Shown one piece after another: positions 2,452-14,063 of a DNA stretch of 14,158 nt (its first letter is position 1; every line of letters begins with the position of its first letter). Below the pieces are notes generated by a model. That model did no database searches and had not been told where the DNA came from. It saw only the letters and a list, made by a program, of their open reading frames with translations. Made by a program: the position numbers and the translations under genes. Location of the stretch: contig JAPLSP010000032.1 in assembly GCA_026398575.1 (NCBI GenBank), positions 1 to 14,158 on the forward strand, written 5' to 3'. This stretch comes from Candidatus Sumerlaeota bacterium (lineage in GTDB: Bacteria; Sumerlaeota; Sumerlaeia; JADFCT01).

Positions 2452-3492
2452 ATGAGACAAGAAGGAATGCCGGGGCTTTCAAGACGGGGATATCTGGCGG
2501 CGCAGGCGGCGATGCTGGCCGGGCTGGCCGCGCCCGCGGGCGCGCTCTTTGCGGCGGAAGAAAAGTCGGCGCAAGACAAGCCGCGAACGCAGGATGAGAA
2601 AGCGTCAGGTGGCAAGCCTGCAAACGCCACTGCGCCAGGCGACAAGCCGGCAAACGTCCATGCGCCGGGCGATAAGCCGTCGCGGCAGCTGCGGATCGGC
2701 GTTGCCACGCTGGGCTTTGCCGACCGCACGAATGCGGCGCTCGCCAAGGAATTGTCCGCGGCGGGCATCCGCCTCATCCAACTCTTCCTCGCCCAAACCG
2801 ACAGCAAATTCTGGAAGTACAACGGCTACTCGGACGTTTCGAGCCTGACGCCCGCGCGCTGCCGCGAGATCGCCGCGCCCTACCGCGGCGCCGGAATCGA
2901 GATTCACAGCATCGCCGTCTATACGAACCTCATCCATCCCGATGAAGCCGAGCGCAAGGCCGCCCTCGACTACTTCGCCGCGATGATGGACATCGGCGGT
3001 CACATGGGCGTCCGCGCGTTCATCACCGAGGCGGGGCACTACCAGGACCCCAAGGCGCCCGCGCCCCCCATCGCGCTCGAGTTTCAGGACGCCGTCTGGC
3101 CGCGCATGATCGCCACGGCCCGCCAGCTCGCCGCGCTCGCCGGGCAGCGCGACGCCAAAGTTTTGTTCGAGCCGTTCTATCGCGGCTTCCTCGCCAGCGC
3201 CAAGCGGCTGCGCCTCGCCGCCGGTTCGCCGCCGGCGCCGCCGGGGTCAGACCTTGATTCCATTACTTCTAGAAATGTAGCTGTCACAGCCGACTCACGC
3301 ATTACCCAATCCTTTGATCTTCTTCACATTTCCCGGAGGCAGGTAGTTCTGCCCGGTTACGACGCTTTGTCCGGTCTTCTGTTCCAACTCAAGGCGGGCG
3401 CCCTTGGCGATGGCGCCGCCGGACTTGGCGGCATCCTTGTTTTCGTCCATGCCGGTAGCGTTATGTCTTTCGGCGATCTGACGTGTGGATAA
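2452..3492 (+). CDS. Tat-exported sugar isomerase/epimerase-like TIM-barrel protein, C-terminally truncated
   Basis: The 346-residue frame begins with a twin-arginine signal (SRRGYL at residues 10-15, then an Ala/Leu-rich core to about 35). Residues 53-76 form a low-complexity linker with 10-residue repeats (GGKPANATAP, GDKPANVHAP, GDKPS). Residues 79 to about 264 look like the xylose-isomerase-like TIM-barrel family (sugar phosphate isomerase/epimerase): RIGVATLGFA, then AGIEIHSIAVYTNLIHP, FITEAGHYQD, and LFEPFYRG with a likely metal-binding Glu at 240. After residue 264, base 3244, the protein changes to unrelated residues because the frame enters foreign DNA starting GGGGTCAGACCTTGATT. The last barrel strands, normally carrying further Asp, His and Glu ligands, are missing, so activity is unlikely. 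The rest of the frame antisenses a BRO-gene relic. It may be annotated as a gene, but I regard it as broken. Confidence 0.75.
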   Translation: MRQEGMPGLSRRGYLAAQAAMLAGLAAPAGALFAAEEKSAQDKPRTQDEKASGGKPANATAPGDKPANVHAPGDKPSRQLRIGVATLGFADRTNAALAKELSAAGIRLIQLFLAQTDSKFWKYNGYSDVSSLTPARCREIAAPYRGAGIEIHSIAVYTNLIHPDEAERKAALDYFAAMMDIGGHMGVRAFITEAGHYQDPKAPAPPIALEFQDAVWPRMIATARQLAALAGQRDAKVLFEPFYRGFLASAKRLRLAAGSPPAPPGSDLDSITSRNVAVTADSRITQSFDLLHISRRQVVLPGYDALSGLLFQLKAGALGDGAAGLGGILVFVHAGSVMSFGDLTCG

Positions 3493-3644
3493 TTCAGCCA
3501 ACGCAGTGAAAATCTGTTCCACTTTTCGCTGCGCCCATGCTTCTGCCAAAGCTCGCGGGCGCGATCTATTGCCCGAGCCGGGTCGGACATTTCCTGCATG
3601 CGCTCGTAGCCGACTTTGGCAAGCCAGAGCTTGATCGGCTCGGC
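3295..3644 (-). pseudogene. Decayed BRO-family (phage antirepressor-like, Bro-N) gene fragment
   Basis: Two minus-strand frames each hold half of what I recognise as the C-terminal part of BRO/antirepressor-type proteins. From 3644 to about 3522 the frame reads AEPIKLWLAKVGYERMQEMS, then DPARAIDRARELWQKHGRSE. From about 3522 to 3295 a different frame reads IFTALAELSTRQIAERHNAT, then GMDENKDAAKSGGAIAKGAR and a tail with VVTGQNYLPP, ending at TGA 3297-3295. In intact relatives these blocks lie in one frame and are separated by roughly 60 residues (my recollection). So this copy lacks its N-terminal DNA-binding-type domain, has an internal deletion, and is frameshifted near 3522. It sits at the broken 3' end of the isomerase-like gene, in the opposite direction. 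It is not a working gene. Confidence 0.75.
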
Positions 3645-3723
3645 AAGATTTTCATGGCAGGTCCTTGATATTGGCCAATGCTTGTAAGACATACGAAAAA
3701 CTCGAGTACAAAAGGTGAAGTCC

Positions 3724-3732
3724 GAAGCGCCG
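3724..3732 (+). repeat. Left 9-bp direct repeat (target-site-duplication-like)
   Basis: GAAGCGCCG here is repeated exactly at 4103-4111, directly outside the two ends of the inverted-repeat element 3733-4102. This is the arrangement a transposition event leaves. Confidence 0.6.
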
Positions 3733-3756
3733 GGGTGCAATCCAGAATTCCGATGC

Positions 3757-3797
3757 CCGCCGCCACCACCGGGCCTTGTGCCGGTGGAGCGATGATT
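3757..3797 (+). repeat. Palindromic repeat copy a
   Basis: CCACCGG and CCGGTGG arms surround GCCTTGTG, inside a longer unit that starts CCGCCGCCACCACC and ends GAGCGATGATT. The same unit occurs at 3826-3866. Together with its 3' flank it is mirrored by the reverse copy e at 4029-4062. Confidence 0.75.
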
Positions 3798-3825
3798 CTG
3801 CGCTAGAAACGCGTGCCCCTATCAT

Positions 3826-3866
3826 CCGCCGCCACCACCGGGCCTTGTGCCGGTGGAGCGATGATT
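3826..3866 (+). repeat. Palindromic repeat copy b
   Basis: This is identical to copy a over the 41-base unit, with the same 7-bp arms. The following bases differ from copy a and belong to the 61-bp tandem duplication. Confidence 0.75.
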
Positions 3867-3960
3867 ATCTTTGCAGGCTGTGATTTTAGCCTTCAATCAC
3901 GGGCCTTGTGCCGGTGGAGCGATGATTATCTTTGCAGGCTGTGATTTTAGCCTTCAATCA
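3839..3960 (+). repeat. 61-bp perfect tandem duplication
   Basis: Bases 3839-3899 and 3900-3960 are identical. Each unit starts CGGGCCTTGTGCCGGTGGAG and ends TTTTAGCCTTCAATCA. The second unit carries palindrome copy c, whose left arm is degraded because the duplication breakpoint lies inside the palindrome. Confidence 0.9.
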
Positions 3961-3962
3961 TA

Positions 3963-3992
3963 GCTCCACTGGCACAAGGCCCAGTGGTGGCG
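3963..3992 (-). repeat. Palindromic repeat copy d (reverse, covarying)
   Basis: Read on the minus strand, the arms are CCACTGG and CCAGTGG around the same GCCTTGTG loop. Both arms changed relative to copies a and b (C to T and G to A) so that pairing is kept. Confidence 0.75.
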
Positions 3993-4028
3993 ACGAGAGA
4001 AAAGCGGTCATTTCTAGCGCAAAATCAC

Positions 4029-4062
4029 CGCTCCACCGGCACAAGGCCCGGTGGTGGTGGCG
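4029..4062 (-). repeat. Palindromic repeat copy e (reverse)
   Basis: Read on the minus strand this has the same arms and loop as copies a and b. With the preceding TTTCTAGCGC (4011-4020) it mirrors copy a and its flank, forming the inner part of the large inverted repeat. Confidence 0.75.
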
Positions 4063-4102
4063 AATTTCGGCGAATACAGGTCCGGAATTCTGGAGTGCAC
4101 CC

Positions 4103-4111
4103 GAAGCGCCG
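4103..4111 (+). repeat. Right 9-bp direct repeat (target-site-duplication-like)
   Basis: This is an exact copy of 3724-3732, directly adjoining the right terminal repeat of the element. Confidence 0.6.
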
Positions 4112-4340: not shown

Positions 4341-5936
4341 TCACTTTCCTTTCTTCGTTTTGGCCGCGTTCATGTGATGCCGAATGACTTTGATATCGTT
4401 CTTCTGCGGCGCGCCGGGCGTGCTGCGGCCGTCGGTGATTACTTTCTCCAGTTGAGCGCTCATCTCTTCCACGCGCTTGGGCTCGGCGGCGGCGAGGTTC
4501 TTCGTTTCGCCGATGTCGGTGTCGAGGTTGTAGAGTTGCGCGTCGGTCTTGGCTGCCGGATCGGCGGCAAGGATGAGTTTCCACGGACCGGAGCGGAAGC
4601 CCGGGACACCGCTGGCGGCGCAGCTGACGGCGTGTTGGCGGATCGGCTTATCTTCACCTTTCAGGAGCGAAACGAAACTGAAACTGTCTTCGCCCGCGTT
4701 GTCAGGAAGTTTGGCGCCGAAAATATCGGCGAGCGTGGCCATGATGTCGGCCTGATGTACGAGCTGGCCGCACACGCTGCCGGGCTTCACCACGCCGGGC
4801 CAGCGGACGATGAAAGGCTCGCGATGGCCGCCCTCATAAACCGACGTCTTGTATCCCCGCAGCGGGCCGCTGGGATAGTGGCCCTGCTTTTCGAGTTCGG
4901 CGGCGCCGGTATAGGCCGCCTTCCCGTTGTCGCCGGTGAAGAGGACCAGCGTGTTGTCCGCCATGCCGCTCTTATCGAGCGCCTCCAGGACACGGCCAAC
5001 GACGGCGTCCGTTTCCATCAGGAAGTCGGCATAGACCCCGAGTCCGCTTTTCCCCTTCCATGCTTCGTTCACCGCCAATGGCTCATGCGGCGAGGTGAGC
5101 GGCATGTAAAGCAGGAAAGGCGCCTTTTGCTCCGCGCAACGCTGGATGCATGCGCACGCCCGGTCGCCGAGCGTGGGCAGGATTGCTTCGAGTTTCCAGT
5201 CCTTCAACGCCGGGCCGGGCAGACTGGCGAGCTGGGGGTTCCTCGTCAACAGGCGGGCCGGCAGGAATTCCGAAGGGATGCCGACGGTGCGGTTGTTCTC
5301 GATGAAGCAATACGGCGGCCAGTTCGGCACGTCGGTCCCAAAGTAGCTGTCGAACCCGCGCGTGGTCGGTCCGCCCGGGATGGGCTTGGAAAAGATCTCG
5401 CGCCAGGCGGCCAGATTTTCCGGCGGGGTGACGCGCGCTTCGTCGTCCTTGCCATCTTTGGGCGGACCTTGCAGGAGTTTGCGTTGGCCGGGTTCGACGG
5501 GCCAGTCCCAGCCGAGATGCCACTTGCCGATGCAGGCGGTTTGATAGCCTTGCTGTTTTGCCAGACTGGCGATGGTGAGCCGGTCGGAGGCGATCAACGG
5601 CTCGCCGAAGACGCCCACGATGCCTTGCTGCAGCCGCGAGCGCCAATGATAGCGCCCGGTCAGCAAGGCATAGCGCGACGGCGAGCAGACGCCGGAGGAC
5701 GAATGCCCGTCGGTGAAGCGCATGCCCTGTTTGGCGAGGCGGTCAATGCAGGGCGTGGGAATTTTCCCACGCTGAGGATTATAGCATTGCACGTCTCCGT
5801 AGCCGATGTCGTCAGCGAGGATGATGATGATGTTGGGCTTGCCAGCGGGCTTCGGGGCATCGGCGGCGTGTAGCGCGGTCAGCGGCGCCAGCAGCAGGAC
5901 GGTGAGGAGGAGGGTGATTGCTGATTGTTGCCTCAT
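4341..5936 (-). CDS. Secreted sulfatase D (formylglycine-dependent, S1-type)
   Basis: This 531-residue protein should hydrolyse sulfate esters outside the cytoplasm. Residues 1-25 are a Sec signal ending LHAADA. The active-site core is complete: NIIIILADDIGYGD with metal-binding Asp42 and Asp43, CSPSR at 84-88 with Cys84 as the residue converted to formylglycine, GKWHLG with Lys138 and His140, SPHEPL with His284, TGDNG with Asp336 and Asn337, and GYKTSVYEGG with Lys363. The C-terminal subdomain (PWKLI, then LYNLDTDIGETKNLA) is typical of arylsulfatase A/N-acetylgalactosamine-6-sulfatase-like members. Its length is normal. The start is set by AAAGGAG seven bases upstream. It follows the amidohydrolase-like gene by 73 bp and is probably the last gene of the transcript. 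Substrate position cannot be read from the sequence; a Cys-type maturase must come from elsewhere in the genome. Confidence 0.93.
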   Translation of the reverse strand: MRQQSAITLLLTVLLLAPLTALHAADAPKPAGKPNIIIILADDIGYGDVQCYNPQRGKIPTPCIDRLAKQGMRFTDGHSSSGVCSPSRYALLTGRYHWRSRLQQGIVGVFGEPLIASDRLTIASLAKQQGYQTACIGKWHLGWDWPVEPGQRKLLQGPPKDGKDDEARVTPPENLAAWREIFSKPIPGGPTTRGFDSYFGTDVPNWPPYCFIENNRTVGIPSEFLPARLLTRNPQLASLPGPALKDWKLEAILPTLGDRACACIQRCAEQKAPFLLYMPLTSPHEPLAVNEAWKGKSGLGVYADFLMETDAVVGRVLEALDKSGMADNTLVLFTGDNGKAAYTGAAELEKQGHYPSGPLRGYKTSVYEGGHREPFIVRWPGVVKPGSVCGQLVHQADIMATLADIFGAKLPDNAGEDSFSFVSLLKGEDKPIRQHAVSCAASGVPGFRSGPWKLILAADPAAKTDAQLYNLDTDIGETKNLAAAEPKRVEEMSAQLEKVITDGRSTPGAPQKNDIKVIRHHMNAAKTKKGK

Positions 5937-5943
5937 ACTCGGG

Positions 5944-5950
5944 CTCCTTT
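5944..5950 (-). promoter_or_regulatory. Ribosome binding site of sulfatase D
   Basis: AAAGGAG on the minus strand lies seven bases before the ATG at 5936 and fixes that start. Confidence 0.7.
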
Positions 5951-6009
5951 ATTATGCAAGCATTGGCTCAATGACTGAAATATCGTAACACTGCCATCCG
6001 TCCGCCGTG

Positions 6010-6978
6010 TCATCGTTTTGTCGAGGACATCGGTTGTGGGCGGATGGAGCTGTTCTCCTGCGCGGGCGTGGCTGTCGAGGCGGTCACGGCGCCCTGCGCC
6101 TCGCCGCCCTGGGCCGCCGCCCGTTTGCGCGGTTGATAAAGTCTGATGAATTCGGCGATGCCGTCGGCCAGTTTCGCGGCCGTGGCTTTGATGTTTGCGC
6201 TTTTTCGGAATTCGGAGCCAAATTCAAGCTGGATGGCGCCGATGCCTTCGCGCTCGCCGCAGGTTCGGACGATATAACCACCGCCGTATCCGGATTTCTC
6301 AGGATCGTTGTTGGTGGGGAAAACCTTGATCCCCTGCGCGGCCAGAAGACCGCACAGACTCTCCGGGCCCGAATGCGCCTTCTCCCCCCATTGCTTCACC
6401 AGCCAACGATCAGTCCGGCCGCCTTGCGTGCCTCGGAAAACAGTGTTGGACGAGGTTCCCTGGCCGTGGATATCGAGCGCCAGGCCATAGCCAAACTCGC
6501 GGACCGCTTCCGTGCAATAGTTACCGAGCGCGCCGTGGTAGCCATCATAAACAGTCCGGGCTTTCGCATCCTCGACCGCTATCTCCGCCGGGCGATTGGC
6601 ATCAATATACTTGCGGTGGAATTTGGCCACTACGTAGTAGGGCTTCTTGCCCAGCTTCCGTTCCAGCGCGGCCGACAGCTCGAATGCCAGTTGGTCAACA
6701 TTGCTATCCCGGCTGGCCACAAAGCCGCGCGGACCCTTCTCCAATCCCTCCCCTTTTCGCGGGTCAACCCCGGGAATATCCTTCTGCCCGCCGTGAGGCG
6801 CGGACAGAATGATCGGCAGATTTCCTTTCTGGACGGCGATGAAATCATTCGCGTCCAAGCGCTGGGCCGTTGCGCACGCCGGGACCGCCGACAATGCCAG
6901 GCAAAGCAACGCCCGGATCAAACACCGCAATTTCAGGGACTCCCATCGCGCTGCGGAAGCAGGGATAATGGTTTTCAT
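6010..6978 (-). CDS. Secreted N-formylglutamate amidohydrolase-like protein
   Basis: The 322-residue protein carries an N-terminal export signal (hydrophobic residues about 19-37). A Cys at 35 in VPAC makes a lipoprotein possible, although Pro at -2 is unusual. The body matches the N-formylglutamate amidohydrolase family, zinc-type hydrolases related to carboxypeptidases. Visible blocks are ILSAPHGG with His62, SRDSNVD with Asp91, FHRKYIDANR with His121, LALDIHGQGTS with Asp169 and His171, and IQLEFGSEFRK with Glu252. The tail after about 283 is low-complexity (Ala, Gln, Ser). The classic enzyme is cytoplasmic and ends histidine breakdown, so an exported member beside sulfatases probably acts on another amide or ester; this is inference. 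AGGAGAG six bases upstream supports the start at 6978. A plus-strand frame of nearly equal length over it is a shadow. Confidence 0.8.
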   Translation of the reverse strand: MKTIIPASAARWESLKLRCLIRALLCLALSAVPACATAQRLDANDFIAVQKGNLPIILSAPHGGQKDIPGVDPRKGEGLEKGPRGFVASRDSNVDQLAFELSAALERKLGKKPYYVVAKFHRKYIDANRPAEIAVEDAKARTVYDGYHGALGNYCTEAVREFGYGLALDIHGQGTSSNTVFRGTQGGRTDRWLVKQWGEKAHSGPESLCGLLAAQGIKVFPTNNDPEKSGYGGGYIVRTCGEREGIGAIQLEFGSEFRKSANIKATAAKLADGIAEFIRLYQPRKRAAAQGGEAQGAVTASTATPAQENSSIRPQPMSSTKR

Positions 6979-7208
6979 TGTGTGCTCTCCTGATCGGGGA
7001 TAGTTAAAAATTCCTTTCTTGCTTGGGCGCTGGCGTTGGCGTTGGCGGGGTCCGTTGGCGGGGTCACAATTGACCTTTTAGAAAGCCCTATTGCTGATCA
7101 TCCGTTACGATTGCCAAGCGTTTCGCCACGGCGGCGGCGGGAGACGCTTTGCCTGTTTGAAATTTCATGCGATCCTCAAGTTAAACACTCACCAACCAAC
7201 AACCATTA
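6979..7208. other. Intergenic region with 13-bp tandem repeat and hairpin
   Basis: CGTTGGCGGGGTC occurs twice in tandem at 7040-7052 and 7053-7065. AAGCGTTTC (7116-7124) can pair with GAGACGCTT (7141-7149), with one wobble and a 16-base GC-rich loop. It lies downstream of sulfatase C on the minus strand but no T-run follows, so a terminator is only weakly supported. No gene is visible. Confidence 0.5.
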
Positions 7209-8672
7209 TTATTTGGATTCAAATCCTTGCCGGACTTTGCCGTCGAAGCCGATGATGGGCTGGGCGTTTTCCACTTTCCCCAACTCGCGGGAACCGGGCG
7301 CCGGTCCGTCGAGGCCAAGGTCCTCTTTCATGGCGGCGACGAGGGCTTGGAGTTGCTTGACGGTCTCCGGATTCGCGGCGGCGACATCGCTCGCTTCGCC
7401 GATGTCGGTTTTGAGATTGTAGAGTTTGGGCTTGCCGCCCGGATTCTTTTCGGGAGGCAGCTGGAGTTTCCAGTCGCCGTGCCGGACGGCTTCAAGCCGC
7501 AGGCCGCGATAATAGTAGAACGTATCGTGGGCGGGCTTCGCGTTTGCATCGCCGGCGAGGTGCGGCCAGATGTTGGCGCCATCAATCTTGCGGTCCGTAG
7601 GCGCTTTTCCGCCGGACAGCACGGCGAAGGTAGGCAGGATGTCGAACATGCCGGTGATGGCGTCGCACTCCGTGCCGGCGGGGACTTTGCCCGGCCACCA
7701 CGCGATGGTGGGTTCGCGCATGCCGCCTTCGAGGGTGCTGCCCTTGAAGCCGCGCAGGGGCGCGTTCACTGCCCGCGGCGTGCCGCCGTTGTCGCTGGTG
7801 AAGATGACGAGGGTGCGCTCGGCCAGGCCGTGTTCGCGCAGAGCATCCAGGACGCGCCCGACGCTCCAGTCAACCTCCTCGACCCAATCCGAATAGATGC
7901 CGTGCGGCGATTTGCCCGCCCATTTCTTGCCGGGGTAGATCGGAAAATGAACGGCATTGTGCGCGAGATAGAGGAAGAAGGGCGCGGCCTTGCGCGCGGC
8001 GATGAACTGGAGAGCCTCATCGGTGTATAGCTCGACGAGCGATTGCTGGTCGTCGGGCAGGACGCGCTTGACCACAACGCCGTTGCGCAGGAGCGGAAGC
8101 GGCGGCTGTCCCTTCCCCGATCCCGGTCCCTTGGGGAGCGGCTTGCCCAGATCGCTTTTCACTCCGTCCTCCGCCGGCCCCATGTCGTTCGAGTACGGCA
8201 GGCCGAAGTGGCTGTCGAATCCCTGCCGCAGAGGGAGGAACTCGGGTTGGTCGCCCAGGTGCCATTTGCCGATGATGCCGGTGGCGTAGCCGGCGGCTTT
8301 GAGAACCTCGGCGACGGTGACCTCCTTGGGCGAGAGTCCGATGTCATTGCCCGGAAAGAGCACGTGCGGGATCGGCAGCGCGCGCTTCGGGTAGCAGCCG
8401 GTCATGAGCGCCGCGCGCGACGGAGAACAGACGGGCGCGGCGTAGAACGAAGTGAGTCTGCGTCCTTCTTTGGCCATGCGGTCTAGGTTCGGCGTGCGAT
8501 TGATCTTCGAGCCAAACGGCCCGATGTCGGCGTAGCCCATGTCATCAATGTTGATGACAATAAAGTTCGGCTTGGCCGGCAGCGTCGTCTCGGCGGCGTG
8601 GAGCCCCGCCAACGAGGCCAGCAGCGCCAGCAGCAGTACGGCGCCGGTGATGATGTTTTGGAACAGGTTCAT
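7209..8672 (-). CDS. Secreted sulfatase C (formylglycine-dependent, arylsulfatase A-like)
   Basis: This 487-residue exported sulfatase has a Sec signal at residues 1-27 (LLLALLASLAGLHAAE). Core residues are all present: NIDDMGYADIG with Asp43 and Asp44, CSPSRAALMTG with Cys82 as the formylglycine precursor and Arg86, GKWHLG with Lys136 and His138, NAVHFP with His242, TSDNGG with Asp294 and Asn295, and GFKGSTLEGGMREP with Lys310. The C-terminal part has HGDWKLQLPP and LYNLKTDIGEASD, typical of the family. Its ATG overlaps the stop of sulfatase B in an ATGA arrangement, so the two are almost certainly co-transcribed and may be translationally coupled. It differs clearly from sulfatases A, B and D in the variable loops, so it probably acts on another sulfate position. 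Specific substrate unknown. Confidence 0.93.
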   Translation of the reverse strand: MNLFQNIITGAVLLLALLASLAGLHAAETTLPAKPNFIVINIDDMGYADIGPFGSKINRTPNLDRMAKEGRRLTSFYAAPVCSPSRAALMTGCYPKRALPIPHVLFPGNDIGLSPKEVTVAEVLKAAGYATGIIGKWHLGDQPEFLPLRQGFDSHFGLPYSNDMGPAEDGVKSDLGKPLPKGPGSGKGQPPLPLLRNGVVVKRVLPDDQQSLVELYTDEALQFIAARKAAPFFLYLAHNAVHFPIYPGKKWAGKSPHGIYSDWVEEVDWSVGRVLDALREHGLAERTLVIFTSDNGGTPRAVNAPLRGFKGSTLEGGMREPTIAWWPGKVPAGTECDAITGMFDILPTFAVLSGGKAPTDRKIDGANIWPHLAGDANAKPAHDTFYYYRGLRLEAVRHGDWKLQLPPEKNPGGKPKLYNLKTDIGEASDVAAANPETVKQLQALVAAMKEDLGLDGPAPGSRELGKVENAQPIIGFDGKVRQGFESK

Positions 8673-10246
8673 TTTGACTTGCCTCCCATGTTGATGAATT
8701 CCTCGCGGCTGAGGAAACCGTCCTTGTCAACGTCCCATTTTTCAGCGCGCGTCTTCGCAGCTTCCATATCAGACTGGCCGGCAAGGAACTCCTCGCGGCT
8801 CAGTTTGCCGTCGCCATTCTTGTCTTTCGTCTGAAACAGGGCGGCGCGATCCTGCACTGGATTGGCGCCGGCTGCGGCTGGCTTGCCTTTGCCGGGCTTG
8901 GCAGGTTCGGGGTTGGCGCAGGGCGGCAGCGTCGCGCTCCAGTCGAGCCATGCCTTGCTCAACCGCCCGGTCAACTCCGGCTTATCAGAGGCGAGGTCGC
9001 GCTTTTCGCCGATGTCATCGGCAAGGTTGAACAGTTGCAGCTTCGGCTGCCACTGATTGACGAGCAGTTTCCAGTCGCCCTCGCGGACGGCGCCGTTCTC
9101 GCCGTTTTTCCAGAATAGAATCGGGTGTGGCGCTACGGGTTTTTCGTCGGTCAGGAAGGGCAGCAGATTGACGCCGTCAAGCGCGACGCCGGCAGGGATG
9201 GGGGCGCCGGCGGCGGCGCAAAATGTGGGATAGAGGTCCATCGTGCTGACCGGCTGGCGATAAAGGCTGCCAGGTTTGAGCTTGGCCGGCCAGCGCAGGA
9301 TGAACGGCTCGCGGATGCCGCCTTCGAGGAATTGTCCTTTGTGGCCGTTGAGCGGCCCGGCGCTGCCAGCGAGCGTACCGGACGTCCAATCTTTCGGCCA
9401 GAGGATAACCGGCATCTTGGCCGGGCCGTTGTCGCTTGTGAACACGACCAAGGTGTCTTCGGGCAGCGCAGCCAATACGCGGCCGATGTTTTCGTCCATC
9501 GAAGCGACCATGGCGGCGTAATAGTTCAGCGGCGGCGCCAGTTTATCGAAGCGCGCGGCGAGTTCTTTCTTCGCGTGGAACGGGCTGTGCACGGCGTTGA
9601 AGGCGAGGTAGAGGAAGAATGGCTTCGGGCCGCGCTTGTGTTTCTCGATGAATTCAACCGCGTGCCGGCCAATGCGGTCGGTCAGATATTCGTCGCCGGG
9701 TTGGTTCGGTCCCCAGACGCCCTGGACTTTGCCGGAGGCGTGCTCGGTGGCGCTGTCCACGCCGACGTAGTGGCCGCTCTTGTCCGGGAAATAATCCGCC
9801 TCCCAGTCAATCAGGTCGTGAATCTCGTCGAAGCAATCCTTCGCCTCCACGGGGATGTTCCATTTGCCAATGTGGCCGGTGAGGTAGCCAGCGGCTTTGA
9901 GCGCCTGCGGCAGCAGCTGGTGCTGGCCGAAGCCATACTTGGCGCGGTCGGTGTTCCACTGCATGCCGAAGCGCTGGTTGTAGGCGCCGGACATGATTCC
10001 GCAGCGGCTTGGCGCGCAGACGGGCGCGGTGACGTAACCCTCGGTGCAGCGGATGCCGTCCCGAGCGAGCGAGTCAATCGCCGGCGTCGGCGCGAGCGTG
10101 CCGCCGTAGCATCCAGGATCGCCATAGCCAAAGTCATCGGCAAGGATGAGAAGGATGTTGGGTCTGGCGTCTCTGGCTTCGGCGGCGGGGAGCGCGGCCA
10201 GCGGCGCCAGCAGCAGCAGGGCGGCAAGGGCAAGGGTGCGTTTCAT
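8669..10246 (-). CDS. Secreted sulfatase B with C-terminal EF-hand pair and variant GKWN motif
   Basis: I choose ATG 10246, giving 525 residues: it begins a clean Sec signal (MKRTLALAALLLLAPLAALP) and has AAAGGA eight bases upstream. An in-frame ATG at 10294 would add 16 residues but spoils the signal. The sulfatase domain has NILLILADDFGYGD with Asp37 and Asp38, CAPSR at 77-81, NAVHSP with His220, TSDNG with Asp272 and Asn273, and GHKGQFLEGG with Lys303. The usual GKWHLG is GKWNIP, so the conserved His is Asn130, although Lys128 remains. After a Pro/Lys/Gly/Ala linker (about 444-465), two EF-hand loops follow: DKNGDGKLSREE at 475-486 and DVDKDGFLSREE at 505-516, both with proper calcium ligands. 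Sulfatases with EF-hands are known in Planctomycetes and Verrucomicrobia. The stop overlaps the start of sulfatase C. Confidence 0.92.
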   Translation of the reverse strand: MKRTLALAALLLLAPLAALPAAEARDARPNILLILADDFGYGDPGCYGGTLAPTPAIDSLARDGIRCTEGYVTAPVCAPSRCGIMSGAYNQRFGMQWNTDRAKYGFGQHQLLPQALKAAGYLTGHIGKWNIPVEAKDCFDEIHDLIDWEADYFPDKSGHYVGVDSATEHASGKVQGVWGPNQPGDEYLTDRIGRHAVEFIEKHKRGPKPFFLYLAFNAVHSPFHAKKELAARFDKLAPPLNYYAAMVASMDENIGRVLAALPEDTLVVFTSDNGPAKMPVILWPKDWTSGTLAGSAGPLNGHKGQFLEGGIREPFILRWPAKLKPGSLYRQPVSTMDLYPTFCAAAGAPIPAGVALDGVNLLPFLTDEKPVAPHPILFWKNGENGAVREGDWKLLVNQWQPKLQLFNLADDIGEKRDLASDKPELTGRLSKAWLDWSATLPPCANPEPAKPGKGKPAAAGANPVQDRAALFQTKDKNGDGKLSREEFLAGQSDMEAAKTRAEKWDVDKDGFLSREEFINMGGKSK

Positions 10247-10254
10247 TTGCGTTA

Positions 10255-10260
10255 TCCTTT
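10255..10260 (-). promoter_or_regulatory. Ribosome binding site deciding the sulfatase B start
   Basis: AAAGGA on the minus strand lies eight bases before ATG 10246. This favours 10246 over the in-frame ATG at 10294. Confidence 0.65.
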
Positions 10261-10312
10261 GGGTATTATTCCCGGCTATTTGTCGTCTTCGCAATCTCTT
10301 TCCTCGTCGCCA

Positions 10313-10477
10313 TTGACAACACGCTATCGTCCGAACAAGCCGCGAAAAAATCCGTGATAATCCGCCCGATCCGCGTCATCCGTGTTCTATGCCAATCTGA
10401 ATTCTTAAATTGACAACACGCTATCGTCCGAACAAGCCGCAAAAAGATCCGTGTTCTATGCCAATCTGAATTCTTAA
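10313..10477 (+). repeat. Direct repeat pair, second copy with 28-bp internal deletion
   Basis: Copy 1 (10313-10408) and copy 2 (10410-10477) both begin TTGACAACACGCTATCGTCC and end CCAATCTGAATTCTTAA. Copy 2 lacks 28 bases lying between two ATCCGTG words of copy 1, so one word was kept, as in slippage or recombination between short direct repeats. The repeat is in the 281-bp gap between sulfatases A and B; no gene is supported here. Confidence 0.85.
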
Positions 10478-10527
10478 TCTGAAACATGGATGGAGAGATC
10501 GGGCGGCCTGCTTCGCATCGCTTGCGG

Positions 10528-12165
10528 CTATTTCTCATCTTCCTCCACGACGGGTCCTTTTTTAATCCGTTTGGGCGGAACATATTTATTGCTGTCGCCG
10601 GCGGCCCATGTAAGGTCAGCGCGAATGGCAGGGTCGTCGGCGTATATCTCCTTGCGCTGTTTTGCGTAGTCCACCAGGGCCTGCGCCAGATCCCGCACGA
10701 TCGGGCGCGAGGCGGGCGCGGCAAAAATATTCTTCATCTCGAATGGGTCCTGATCGAGGTCGAGCAGGCACGGATCCGAGTCGGGCGAGACGATGAACTT
10801 GTATCGGCTGGTCGCCGCCATCAGCCACAGGCCGTTTGCATTGCGCGAGATCGTCACATTCTTCCAGCTCGCGGGCGCCTTGCCGGTGAGAAACAGCGCC
10901 GAGGCGTCGCGCCCCTCGTCGCCGCGTTGGTCGTCGCCGTCGCGCGGCGCGCCCATCAAAGCAAGGATCGTCGGCTTGAAATCCGTGTTGTTCAACGCCT
11001 CGTGAATCACCGTGCCGGGCTTGATCCTGCCGGGATACGACATGAGGAATGGAATGCGCGCCGAGCCTTCCAGCGGGATGCCCTTGTTGACGCGTCCGTG
11101 TTCGCCGCACATGTCGCCGTGGTCGGAGGTGAAGACGACGATCGTTCGCTCCGCCACGCCCGCCGCGCGCAACGCGGCAAGAATCTTGCCCACGTTGTCG
11201 TCAATGCACTTCACCATGCCGAAGTAGTGGCTCATGTTTTCCAGATGCGGTTTGGCCGGCGGCACGGCGCACAACGGAAGTCCCGCGCCCGGCTCCAAGG
11301 CGGAACGCGGCTGCTGGAATTTCAGATCGGCAAACATCGTGTCATACGGAGGGCGGACGGTGTTCGGCCCGTGAGGGTCGGGAATGCTCGTCACGAAGCA
11401 GAAGGGCTTGTCCTTGTGTTCCTTGATAAACTCCGCCGTCTTATCGGCGAGGAAATCCGTGGTGAACGATTTCTCGTCGGCGCCTTTGATGTTGTAGTTG
11501 TTGCCGCCCTTCACGCGCGGGCTTGTGGGAGTGTCTTCGAGTTGTTTGTAGTGGCCGCGGTTGAACATGTACTTGTTGTCCTCGAAGCCAAACTTCCGCG
11601 CCGGCCCCCAGCCCGGCTTGGCGGGGCCATCGAGATGCCACTTGCCGGCGTAACCGGTCATATAGCCGTTGCGGCGCAGCGTTTCGGCAAACGTCACGAC
11701 GTTGTCGTTCATCGGCCGGTCGTTCACGTAGGCGTCGGTGTTCTGCGGATACCGCCCCGAGAAGAACGCCGCCCGCGACGGCGTGCAGACCGGCGACGCC
11801 GCATAGAACCGGTCGCAAAGCAGCCCGTTCTTAGCAATAGAATCAATGTGCGGCGTTTCAACCGCAATTCCCTCGCCCCAGACAAACGCCTGTTCCTTCG
11901 GCAGCAGCGCCCGATAGCAGCCCAGCGTGCGGAAGTTATGCTCATCCGTGACGATCACAACCAGATTCGGCTTCTCTCCGAGGTTTGGCTTATCCCCCGC
12001 CGCGGGCTTCGGCGCATCGGCGGCAAATGCGCCCGGCGCCAAAGCCAGCGCCCCGCCCGCAAGCGCAGACATGCGCAAGAAATCCAAGCGGTTGACGCGG
12101 GCGCCTGATCCTCCATTACCTTCTTCTGCTGCATGCTTCCCTGCATCGCGCATATTGTTCTCCAT
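10528..12165 (-). CDS. Exported sulfatase A (formylglycine-dependent, choline-/iduronate-sulfatase-like)
   Basis: I prefer ATG 12165 (545 residues), which has AAAGGAAGG six bases upstream. ATG 12153 is an alternative with GGAGAA before it; the longest frame from 12270 is less likely. The N-terminus has RVNRLDFLRMSALAGGALAL, which resembles a Tat signal with only one of the two arginines, followed by AFAADA. Core residues: IVTDEHN with Asp74 and Glu75, CTPSRAAFFSGRYP with Cys127 and Arg131, GKWHLDG with Lys175 and His177, PDPHGP with His265, TSDHGD with Asp348 and His349, and NKGIPLEG with Lys361. The TDEHN and SDHGD forms set it apart from the other three and resemble choline-sulfatase or iduronate-2-sulfatase-type members. 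It follows the fucosidase by 108 bp in the same direction. Substrate not assignable. Confidence 0.92.
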   Translation of the reverse strand: MENNMRDAGKHAAEEGNGGSGARVNRLDFLRMSALAGGALALAPGAFAADAPKPAAGDKPNLGEKPNLVVIVTDEHNFRTLGCYRALLPKEQAFVWGEGIAVETPHIDSIAKNGLLCDRFYAASPVCTPSRAAFFSGRYPQNTDAYVNDRPMNDNVVTFAETLRRNGYMTGYAGKWHLDGPAKPGWGPARKFGFEDNKYMFNRGHYKQLEDTPTSPRVKGGNNYNIKGADEKSFTTDFLADKTAEFIKEHKDKPFCFVTSIPDPHGPNTVRPPYDTMFADLKFQQPRSALEPGAGLPLCAVPPAKPHLENMSHYFGMVKCIDDNVGKILAALRAAGVAERTIVVFTSDHGDMCGEHGRVNKGIPLEGSARIPFLMSYPGRIKPGTVIHEALNNTDFKPTILALMGAPRDGDDQRGDEGRDASALFLTGKAPASWKNVTISRNANGLWLMAATSRYKFIVSPDSDPCLLDLDQDPFEMKNIFAAPASRPIVRDLAQALVDYAKQRKEIYADDPAIRADLTWAAGDSNKYVPPKRIKKGPVVEEDEK

Positions 12166-12171
12166 CGCTTG

Positions 12172-12180
12172 CCTTCCTTT
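12172..12180 (-). promoter_or_regulatory. Ribosome binding site deciding the sulfatase A start
   Basis: AAAGGAAGG on the minus strand lies six bases before ATG 12165. A second purine stretch, GGAGAA at 12159-12164, could serve ATG 12153. Confidence 0.55.
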
Positions 12181-12223
12181 CCTATCTAAGTTTAGCGCTG
12201 CATTATTTGCCTGCCAATCCCCA

Positions 12224-12237
12224 AAATTCCTAAATTC
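12224..12237 (+). repeat. 14-bp direct repeat flanking the fucosidase gene (copy 1)
   Basis: AAATTCCTAAATTC occurs here and at 13910-13923, on either side of the fucosidase gene and in the same orientation. Similarity continues (TGATCCCG versus GATTCCG). Just after this copy, CCGACAAC occurs three times (12243, 12252, 12264). Confidence 0.6.
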
Positions 12238-12273
12238 TGATCCCGACAACGCCGACAACGACCCCGACAACCG

Positions 12274-13803
12274 TTATGGTTGGCTTCCTGTGATTTTGAA
12301 CACCCACGCATGTTCGCCGGAGAGGTTCGGCGGCGGTTCCAGGCGGAGGCCCGCATCCGTCATGGTCCACGCCACCTTGTCCGGGCTGCCGAGGAGGCTA
12401 ACCGCGCTCACTTTCATGCCTTTGGTTTCCGTCAGCCTCAGCGGCATCGCCGGCTTGTTGAGCGAGATGGCATAGAGAACGCCGCCTTTTTGCGTGTAAC
12501 GTATCTCGACGGGGCGCAGCGGAATCGCATGAGCGCGGGTTGGCATGGCCGCCTTGCCCTCGCCCTCGCCGGATGCTTTCCAGGGATGAGTCCCATAGAT
12601 GGCCTCGCCGTTGATCCGCAGCCATTCGCCCACCGCCAGCAGGCGTTTCTGCATGCCCTCGGGTATGGTCCCATCGGGGCGCGGCCCGATGTTCAGTAGC
12701 AGGTTTCCATTCTTGCTGACGATGTCGCAGAGCAGGTGAATCAGTTCGGGGGGCGTCTTGTAGGAATCCCGCTGTTCTTCGGCGACGCTATAGAACCAAC
12801 TGCCCGCCAGCGTCATCGGGCATTGCCATTTCTGCCCGGCGGCTTCCTCCGCGTTCATGCGGTCTTTCTCATAGCACCCCACCCCATCCGGCCAGTTGCG
12901 GACCTTGCCCTTGTTGTTGAAGTATGTCTCTTTGCCCCATTGCCGGGACGCGTTCAGGTATTCGCAGATCAAGCGGCAACAGGCGTCCTGGTATTTCGCC
13001 ACCTGGGGGCTTTTGTCGCCAACTTGGAAGAAGGGGCAATTGTCAATCCATAGGAAGTCCGGCTGGTATCTCCGCTCCCATTCTTTCCAACGGGCGACGA
13101 AGCTCGCGATGAACGCGTCGCTGTATTCGAACGGACCGTAAAGGCCTTCTGCCTTGGGGAAGCGCCGTATCTCTTCCGCAATGTCTTTGCACGGTGGGCT
13201 TTTCTCGACGAATTTCTTTTGGGAGAACATGCCGGCATGGCGTTCGCGATGAAACGAGGGGGCATACATGATCCCCCGGGCGCGAACGGCCTTGCCGAGG
13301 TCGCCAATCAGGTCCCGCTTCGGGCCCATCTTGGCGGCGCACCAATCGGTCAACTCGGAATCTCCGAGCATGAATCCATCGTGATGCTCGCCGGTCAGGA
13401 TCACGTATCGGGCGCCGGCTTTCTGAAACAATTCCGCCCACGCCTCGGGGTCCCATTTTTCCGCCTTGAACATGGCGACGGCGTCCTTGTATCCGAAATC
13501 CGGCGGGGTTGCGCCGAATTGCTTCTTCAACGCGGGATAGGCCCTTTCCGGATTCTGATAATCTGCCCAGGGAGAATCCCAGATGCTTTGGGGCCCCCAA
13601 TGAATGAAGATGCCGAACTTGGCGTCGTCGAACCATCGGGGGACGGGAACCGTTTTAAGAGATTCCCAGGTGGGTTGATACGGGCCGGCTGCCTCTCCTG
13701 CTTTCTCACTTGCAGGCTTATCAGCCGCATTCGACATCCCGGCGCTCAACACCAAGGCGAAGGCGCAAAACAGATTTGTCATGCGAAGTCTTGGGATAAT
13801 CAT
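12274..13803 (-). CDS. Secreted alpha-L-fucosidase (GH29)
   Basis: The 509-residue enzyme should release alpha-linked L-fucose from glycans by a retaining mechanism. A Sec signal covers residues 1-27 (LFCAFALVLSAGMSNAADK). GH29 blocks appear in order: RWFDDAKFGIFIHWG at 56-70, TGEHHDGF at 137-144 with His140 and His141 in the fucose pocket, RDLIGDLGKAVRARGI at 163-178, PDFLWIDN at 248-255 with Asp254 as the likely nucleophile, SWFYS near 335, and the SKNGNLLLNIGPRPDG block at 363-378. The acid/base residue is variable in GH29 and I do not assign it. A C-terminal beta-sandwich follows, ending near HAWVFKIT. The start has GGGAGA six to seven bases upstream; Met8 lacks such a site. As the most upstream minus-strand gene it may head the transcript, and with the sulfatases it points to a sulfated fucose-rich substrate. 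Exo or endo mode and linkage cannot be read. Confidence 0.93.
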   Translation of the reverse strand: MIIPRLRMTNLFCAFALVLSAGMSNAADKPASEKAGEAAGPYQPTWESLKTVPVPRWFDDAKFGIFIHWGPQSIWDSPWADYQNPERAYPALKKQFGATPPDFGYKDAVAMFKAEKWDPEAWAELFQKAGARYVILTGEHHDGFMLGDSELTDWCAAKMGPKRDLIGDLGKAVRARGIMYAPSFHRERHAGMFSQKKFVEKSPPCKDIAEEIRRFPKAEGLYGPFEYSDAFIASFVARWKEWERRYQPDFLWIDNCPFFQVGDKSPQVAKYQDACCRLICEYLNASRQWGKETYFNNKGKVRNWPDGVGCYEKDRMNAEEAAGQKWQCPMTLAGSWFYSVAEEQRDSYKTPPELIHLLCDIVSKNGNLLLNIGPRPDGTIPEGMQKRLLAVGEWLRINGEAIYGTHPWKASGEGEGKAAMPTRAHAIPLRPVEIRYTQKGGVLYAISLNKPAMPLRLTETKGMKVSAVSLLGSPDKVAWTMTDAGLRLEPPPNLSGEHAWVFKITGSQP

Positions 13804-13909: not shown

Positions 13910-13923
13910 AAATTCCTAAATTC
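13910..13923 (+). repeat. 14-bp direct repeat flanking the fucosidase gene (copy 2)
   Basis: This AAATTCCTAAATTC is the exact partner of 12224-12237. It directly abuts the left arm of the 17-bp inverted repeat. Confidence 0.6.
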
Positions 13924-14019
13924 GATTCCGCTGAAAAACCTTTCCGCTGGCTCGCTTCCAATCACGGCCTTCAGCCGGGAACAAAGGCTAACAGGTTCTC
14001 AGGGTTTTTCAGCGGAATC
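13924..14019. repeat. 17-bp perfect inverted repeat with 62-bp interior
   Basis: GATTCCGCTGAAAAACC (13924-13940) is the exact reverse complement of 14003-14019. The interior carries smaller complementary words such as CCTTT (13939-13943) and AAAGG (13984-13988). It could be a small repeat element or a structured upstream signal. Confidence 0.7.
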
Positions 14020-14063
14020 CAAATTCCAAGTCTAACCCTCCCGGGACCCTCCCGGCTAAGTAC

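Follow-up and report, generated by a model that had tools for sequence, protein, structure and literature searches.

We found that a 370-bp element at positions 3733-4102 of a 14,158-nucleotide stretch of Candidatus Sumerlaeota DNA, hereafter the window, is probably (at a rough probability of 0.85) a non-autonomous MITE that is mobilised through its terminal repeats and has REP modules as its core. An earlier note on this DNA had claimed inverted ends of 20 bp, and these were confirmed: the left terminal inverted repeat (TIR), GGGTGCAATCCAGAATTCCG (3733-3752, plus strand), agrees with the reverse complement of the right TIR (4083-4102, minus strand) at 19 of 20 positions, and the window TIRs end in CCC. 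Matches to the left end at up to three mismatches averaged 0.01 in dinucleotide shuffles of the window, and two matches were seen in 0 of 200 shuffles. A 9-bp duplication, also claimed, sits exactly outside both ends, with GAAGCGCCG at 3724-3732 and again at 4103-4111 (unstranded). When we scanned the window for 20-bp inverted pairs matching at 18 of 20 positions or better and spaced 100-1999 bp apart, the 9-bp flanking repeat was unique to this pair; the other pairs had at most 4 bp, and the sole further exception was the same pair shifted by one base, with a flanking repeat of 7 bp. An exact 9-bp repeat at fixed boundaries is expected by chance about four times in a million. The window ORFs and their translations contained no credible reading frame in the 370 bp, in keeping with the claim that no protein is encoded. 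The element thus has the size of a MITE (about 70-400 bp, without coding capacity), together with the TIRs and target-site duplication. Folded as DNA it reached -145.2 kcal/mol, against a shuffled mean of -62.8 kcal/mol (z = -19.1), a foldback of the whole element. As RNA it gave a very stable fold on both strands, and no Rfam family reached its gathering score in a scan of the window.

The interior is made up of REP-type hairpins, four intact and one half-copy, with their tails pointing inward. Units 1 (3766-3805) and 2 (3835-3874, whose tail has lost its CTA) lie on the plus strand, and units 4 (3948-3987) and 5 (4015-4054) are inverted on the minus strand. Unit 3 (3900-3935, plus strand) is the half-copy and derives from a perfect 61-bp tandem duplication on the plus strand (3839-3960, comprising 3839-3899 and 3900-3960); subtracting this duplication leaves an element of 309 bp. 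Of the five palindromes that had been claimed, four have intact stems, whereas the middle one (about 3900-3927) is part of the tandem duplication and has no outer stem arm; our structural scan missed it. The tails of the window units read CTAG, CTAA or are lost, and all four intact units have a non-standard pair at stem position 8.

The window has several other features. On the minus strand at about 3298-3646 is the remnant of a Bro-N domain gene, which we take to be DinD-like, in two pieces in different frames and with its N-terminal part missing; an isomerase-like ORF (2452-3492) runs into it. Compared with the Bro-N protein encoded on plasmid pHALHY02, the two pieces (51 and 60 residues aligned) showed 47% identity; they gave no matches to Pfam or NCBIfam and, in a tblastn search of plasmids with one of them, returned nothing at 1e-5. 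Inspection by eye of the joined flanks revealed no Bro-N-like frame continuing across the element site. The sole plasmid match of the element with its flanks was 45 bp long and fell in the flanking pseudogene. On the minus strand from 4341 to 13803 are four sulfatases, an alpha-L-fucosidase and an N-formylglutamate amidohydrolase-like gene, perhaps a locus for degradation of sulfated polysaccharides. The best relative of the amidohydrolase-like protein (6010-6978) comes from a Candidatus Sumerlaeota MAG (NTX50_26070), with 79% identity over 91%; its other relatives with organism names are from the Verrucomicrobiae or the Planctomycetes group, at lower identity. A second small inverted repeat at 13918-14025 (22/28 over the outer arms, 14/15 at 13923/14020, with AAATT on both sides) has ends unlike those of the main element and is possibly another miniature element.

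To find relatives among predicted proteins, we searched with composite translations of the element. These queries held the peptides of the ends, and REPs without these ends are therefore under-detected. Three proteins matched at E ≤ 10, all from Candidatus Sumerlaeota: P0121 (E = 5.9, weak alone), P0122 (3.5e-6) and P0123 (3.0e-5); tblastn back to the element, in a tiny database, gave 4e-28, 7e-25 and 1e-20, respectively. Residues 10-54 of P0121 match window positions 3735-3869 on the minus strand at 89% over 45 columns, a part that comprises two REPs, a spacer and the terminal repeat and that contains two stops on the window side; past residue 54 the protein is an unrelated nucleotidyltransferase. 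Such elements can therefore create spurious protein predictions, of which the N terminus of P0121 is an example. In P0122 a left end is followed by a single REP, by two REPs in inverted orientation and by a right end that has diverged, and the partial P0123 holds two inverted REPs and the right end. P0121 and P0123 repeat the translation of the left TIR, which P0122 has in altered form, and ends and hairpins in the order seen in the window are common to the translated relatives in the three proteins. The translated end finishes in L in P0121 and P0123, against P in the window; either their outermost base is different or the end is shifted inward by one base. NTX50 locus tags are carried by two of the copies, P0122 and P0123. 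Because the Sumerlaeota copies are known here as proteins only, target duplications cannot be read there; the codons beside the two ends of P0122 showed no obvious fit to a 9-bp repeat by eye. The element was found in none of 13 genomes of FGase relatives (80 loci fetched).

A Planctomycetota genome (G544) contains a family of elements with similar ends. Here, REP pairs at two loci (L168 and L169) are bounded by GGGTGCARTAACGSATTTG and by the exact 9-bp duplications CAAGCGCGT and CGGCCCCTG, and a third exact duplication, CGGTCTCTT, was found at L170; the REP pair thus occupies three sites with three different exact duplications. The GGGTGCARTAACGSATTTG terminal repeat matched this genome 125 times at up to three mismatches, against 7 matches for the control. 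Among the matches listed were 31 element pairs, of which we read 30 and omitted one that begins at a contig end (C273). Most of the 30 are 152-153 bp long (22), with four of 180 bp, one of 159 bp and three of 249-256 bp; the last three hold the REP pair and the other 27 carry other cores. Comparison of the 9-bp flanks showed no mismatch in 17 elements, one in 7 and at least four in 6, the last group including one exact 8-bp repeat, one exact 10-bp repeat and four elements without a duplication. A further pair, at L295 and outside the count of 30, has an exact 9-bp repeat. Copies with shared flanks, or copies that never show duplications, had been named in the earlier note as grounds for abandoning the mobile element; what we found in G544 was at most one mismatch in 24 of 30 flank pairs, as compared with 0 of 870 control pairs taken from different elements. 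This family also provides multiple dispersed copies in one genome, as expected of a MITE.

One set of ends in G544 carries four core types, one of which is the REP pair of the window. Outside the ends the four types are mutually dissimilar at E = 1e-3, and one member of each folds much better than its mononucleotide shuffles. The G544 REP core aligned with the window core at a best E of 3.7e-6 (80% over 45 bp). The window TIR agrees with the G544 TIRs at 12-13 of 20 positions, including GGGTGCA; the commonest G544 TIR agrees at 12, a level reached in about 0.1% of shuffles. The family is therefore like the window element in its outer GGGTGCA, its 9-bp duplication, its foldback and, in 3 of 30 members, its REP core, but unlike it in the inner half of the TIR and in the other cores of the remaining 27. 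When the REP-cored element was used as a query, it had 63 matches in G544; by our own count, three places span both ends and 16 others match the paired-REP part alone, and REPs therefore occur outside the MITE too. The elements at L265-L291 are MITEs with identical ends and three core types (152-153, 159 and 180 bp) that do not contain the REP of the window and are rich in other hairpins. In the family (2 genomes) and class (9 genomes) of G544, no genome other than G544 itself yielded this TIR.

A second type of end surrounds REP pairs in a Verrucomicrobiota genome (G298). At L191, a REP pair lies between GTAACTTCTCA ends with an exact 8-bp repeat, GATGAACT, and two further loci of this genome (L177 and L181) have similar GTAACTTC-type ends with one mismatch in 8 bp. 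We tested 11 REP-pair loci, 9 in G298 and 2 in G544, for ends with an 8-10-bp duplication; three were positive, all in G298, and none was found at the other eight (6 in G298, 2 in G544). These data raise the possibility that the terminal repeats are an exchangeable vehicle for palindromic cores, and that REP pairs have been captured more than once by TIR elements that duplicate 8 or 9 bp, by GGGTGCA ends in Sumerlaeota and Planctomycetota and by GTAACTTC ends with 8-bp duplications in G298; we regard the case for this as evenly balanced.

Other searches for copies gave little. An exact 24-bp hairpin pattern had no matches in genome contigs, and the exact window TIR had none in viral contigs. 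Two other hairpin patterns gave one match and none in viral contigs; the match (L001), at a contig edge and unlike the element beyond the pattern, was rejected as chance. A lone G544-type TIR in viral contigs with no good partner (L313) was likewise judged to be chance. A window-type TIR pattern matched 8 times in 7 of 392 Planctomycetota genomes, against 2 control matches, and none of these matches had an inverted partner above 13/20.

The hairpin units themselves are more widespread. In blastn searches with the element, 9 of 387 Verrucomicrobiota and 8 of 392 Planctomycetota genomes matched; the convincing cross-phylum matches comprised hairpin units only, and in none of the matches that we read did the ends of the element follow a convincing REP. 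Seven loci among the 17 matched genomes (L088, L089, L090, L093, L096, L098 and L099) were coincidence-like alignments and were excluded as REPs; L098 was also rejected as a relative of the right end, as it had no terminal repeat beyond the match. A hairpin-flank pattern matched 29 times in G298, 15 times in G544 and 10 times each in G513 and G319, as compared with 0, 1, 0 and 1 matches for the reversed pattern, and remained at control level in many of the other 15 genomes searched. Using a filter of at most one stem mismatch and at least 9 of 13 tail positions, we collected 52 distinct units from seven sources, which align as stem-loop-stem-AGCGATGATT-N5-CTA. In this set, preselected for at most one stem mismatch, there were paired changes at stem positions 4, 5, 7 and 8, and a few units had non-standard stem pairs. 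A similar filter applied to 1.15 Mb of loci selected without regard to REPs returned two weak matches. The units have no GTAG tag at one end; their cross-phylum consensus, CTAC, is GTAG reversed and in many of them is separated from the stem by 15 bases. Because the tag is absent, we refer to the units as REP-type, outside the described GTAG families.

In one place such units surround a transposase gene. At L092, in G513, an ORF with a Y1_Tnp match (PF01797, E = 9.7e-12) lies between REP units with their tails inward; against the NCBIfam IS200 model it scored 50.1 bits, below the cut-off of 55. Its product (L092:701-1483) is a 260-residue Y1 transposase-like protein with a permuted or double profile arrangement: residues 42-121 match the C-terminal portion of the Y1 profile, and further along residues 152-221 match the N-terminal portion of an IS200 model. 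None of 30 other Y1 loci, from 45 Y1 places in eight genomes, had a REP unit of the window kind, and the window has no Y1 or RAYT gene.

Together, these data argue for a MITE whose movement depends on its ends: matched ends, a fixed duplication length and different sites support this reading, because such traces are expected from an enzyme that works on the terminal repeats. This transposase would be encoded elsewhere, recognise the GGGTGCA-type repeats and move the element in trans. The most likely class is a DDE enzyme, which would make 9-bp staggered cuts and so produce the 9-bp duplication, and the gene of an autonomous partner would be framed by GGGTGCANTCCAGAATTCCG. The earlier note had proposed looking for a transposase gene within the same ends; our search, run in part, found none. 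In G544, PF00872 had no matches, none of eight PF01609 loci was framed by GGGTGCA, and GGGTGCA ends plus a 9-bp repeat surrounded none of the 6 Y1 places examined, out of 19. As no DDE family and none of these Y1 loci could be tied to the ends, the REP units look like cargo. The interior is a tail-to-tail array of REP-type hairpins rather than a decayed transposase gene, and this array was probably captured by the element and travels along. The best reading of the order in G544 is that a MITE captured a REP pair and the composite then spread; we place capture first because REP pairs also occur without these ends.

We considered whether a RAYT (HUH/Y1) transposase alone could have moved the element as a REPIN cluster, with TIRs that are no more than elongated REP sequence and a 9-bp repeat that arose by chance. 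The REP-type units of the core, and their position around the Y1_Tnp gene of G513, would suit this explanation, which we consider unlikely given the rarity of an exact 9-bp repeat and the recurrence of duplications in G544, where three further core types, free of this REP, share those ends. The convincing REP matches in other phyla that are not followed by the ends of the element, and the 30 other Y1 loci without such a REP, also count against it. Y1 enzymes are not known to leave a target duplication. It is also conceivable that the structure serves the host as a regulator or terminator between convergent genes and is not mobile. It does have a very stable fold on both strands, with a plus-strand ORF on one side and a minus-strand sulfatase gene on the other, but this would leave the duplication, the terminal repeats and the relatives at unrelated sites unexplained, and no Rfam family was found at gathering score; we think this highly improbable.

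Closer to the MITE reading is a type I MITE, an insertion sequence that has lost its interior and kept its ends alone, with REPs inserted later. MITEs are often regarded as deleted insertion sequences, according to the available part of PMC10969869, and the ends, the 9-bp duplication and the length are as expected of one. However, the interior consists of hairpins with no transposase remnant, and the four core types in G544 are hairpin-rich and mutually unrelated outside the ends. We therefore consider later insertion into a deleted element very unlikely, although at the level of origin it is compatible with a MITE that carries REPs and is only partly a rival to it.

MITEs and REP hairpins have generally been regarded as distinct classes served by different enzymes. 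The related hairpins described in this work occur on their own, on either side of a single Y1 transposase gene and within TIR elements that have target duplications, in genomes of two phyla in addition to the Sumerlaeota window. This offers a route by which REPs could spread without a transposase of their own, and a case in which the exchange of cores between constant ends can be tested. If REP pairs have indeed been captured repeatedly by TIR elements, two unrelated transposition systems would disseminate the same hairpins; elsewhere, REP pairs are thought to be spread by single-strand HUH enzymes.

Among known systems, REPINs and GTAG REPs with their RAYTs, as far as the accessible portions of PMC3116915 and PMC3733652 describe them, resemble the window element in their inverted pairs of tagged hairpins, a likeness that at one locus, L092, extends to hairpins flanking a Y1 transposase gene. 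Unlike these REPINs, the window element is enclosed by 20-bp TIRs and a 9-bp duplication, and whereas the REPIN tag in those descriptions adjoins the stem, here it lies 15 bases away (AGCGATGATT-N5-CTAC in the consensus). GTAG REPs have been reported in O. terrae and R. baltica (PMC3733652). PMC3733652 also reports REP dimers nested inside palindromes in Anabaena variabilis and Halothiobacillus neapolitanus. In the latter species the frame opens with GGG and closes with CCC, as here, but the frames otherwise differ in sequence, and that section of PMC3733652 mentions no target duplication for either species. The p-MULT group (IS256, ISKra4 and others) is described in the accessible text of PMC3942029 as having terminal repeats 18-39 bp long whose terminal C is conserved, as leaving 8- or 9-bp target duplications and as occurring in Planctomycetes among others. 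The 9-bp duplication and 20-bp repeats ending in CCC are compatible with these features as far as that description goes, but no such transposase is linked to the ends of the element, PF00872 having had no match in G544. Other DDE families share p-MULT-like duplication and repeat features.

The earlier note had suggested an undescribed non-autonomous element. That it is a MITE is supported by the window and, more strongly, by the G544 family, but the kind, a MITE holding a REP, is already known from QMITE2 of Coxiella burnetii, so that the word 'undescribed' can apply to this particular family only. The literature searched, with partial coverage, contained no description of this family or of a core with several REPs tail to tail, nor of different cores under one set of ends or recurrence in other phyla. 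QMITE2, in the available parts of PMC5896051 and PMC10969869, is a MITE with TIRs of 23-29 bp, variable direct repeats of 7-11 nt, a GTAG REP inside and a stable fold. Judged by its description it is the closest known element, and it resembles the window element in its TIRs, duplications and internal REP. It differs, as described there, in having one REP and a length of 150-190 bp, whereas the window element, from another phylum, has five tail-to-tail units (one a half-copy) in 370 bp.
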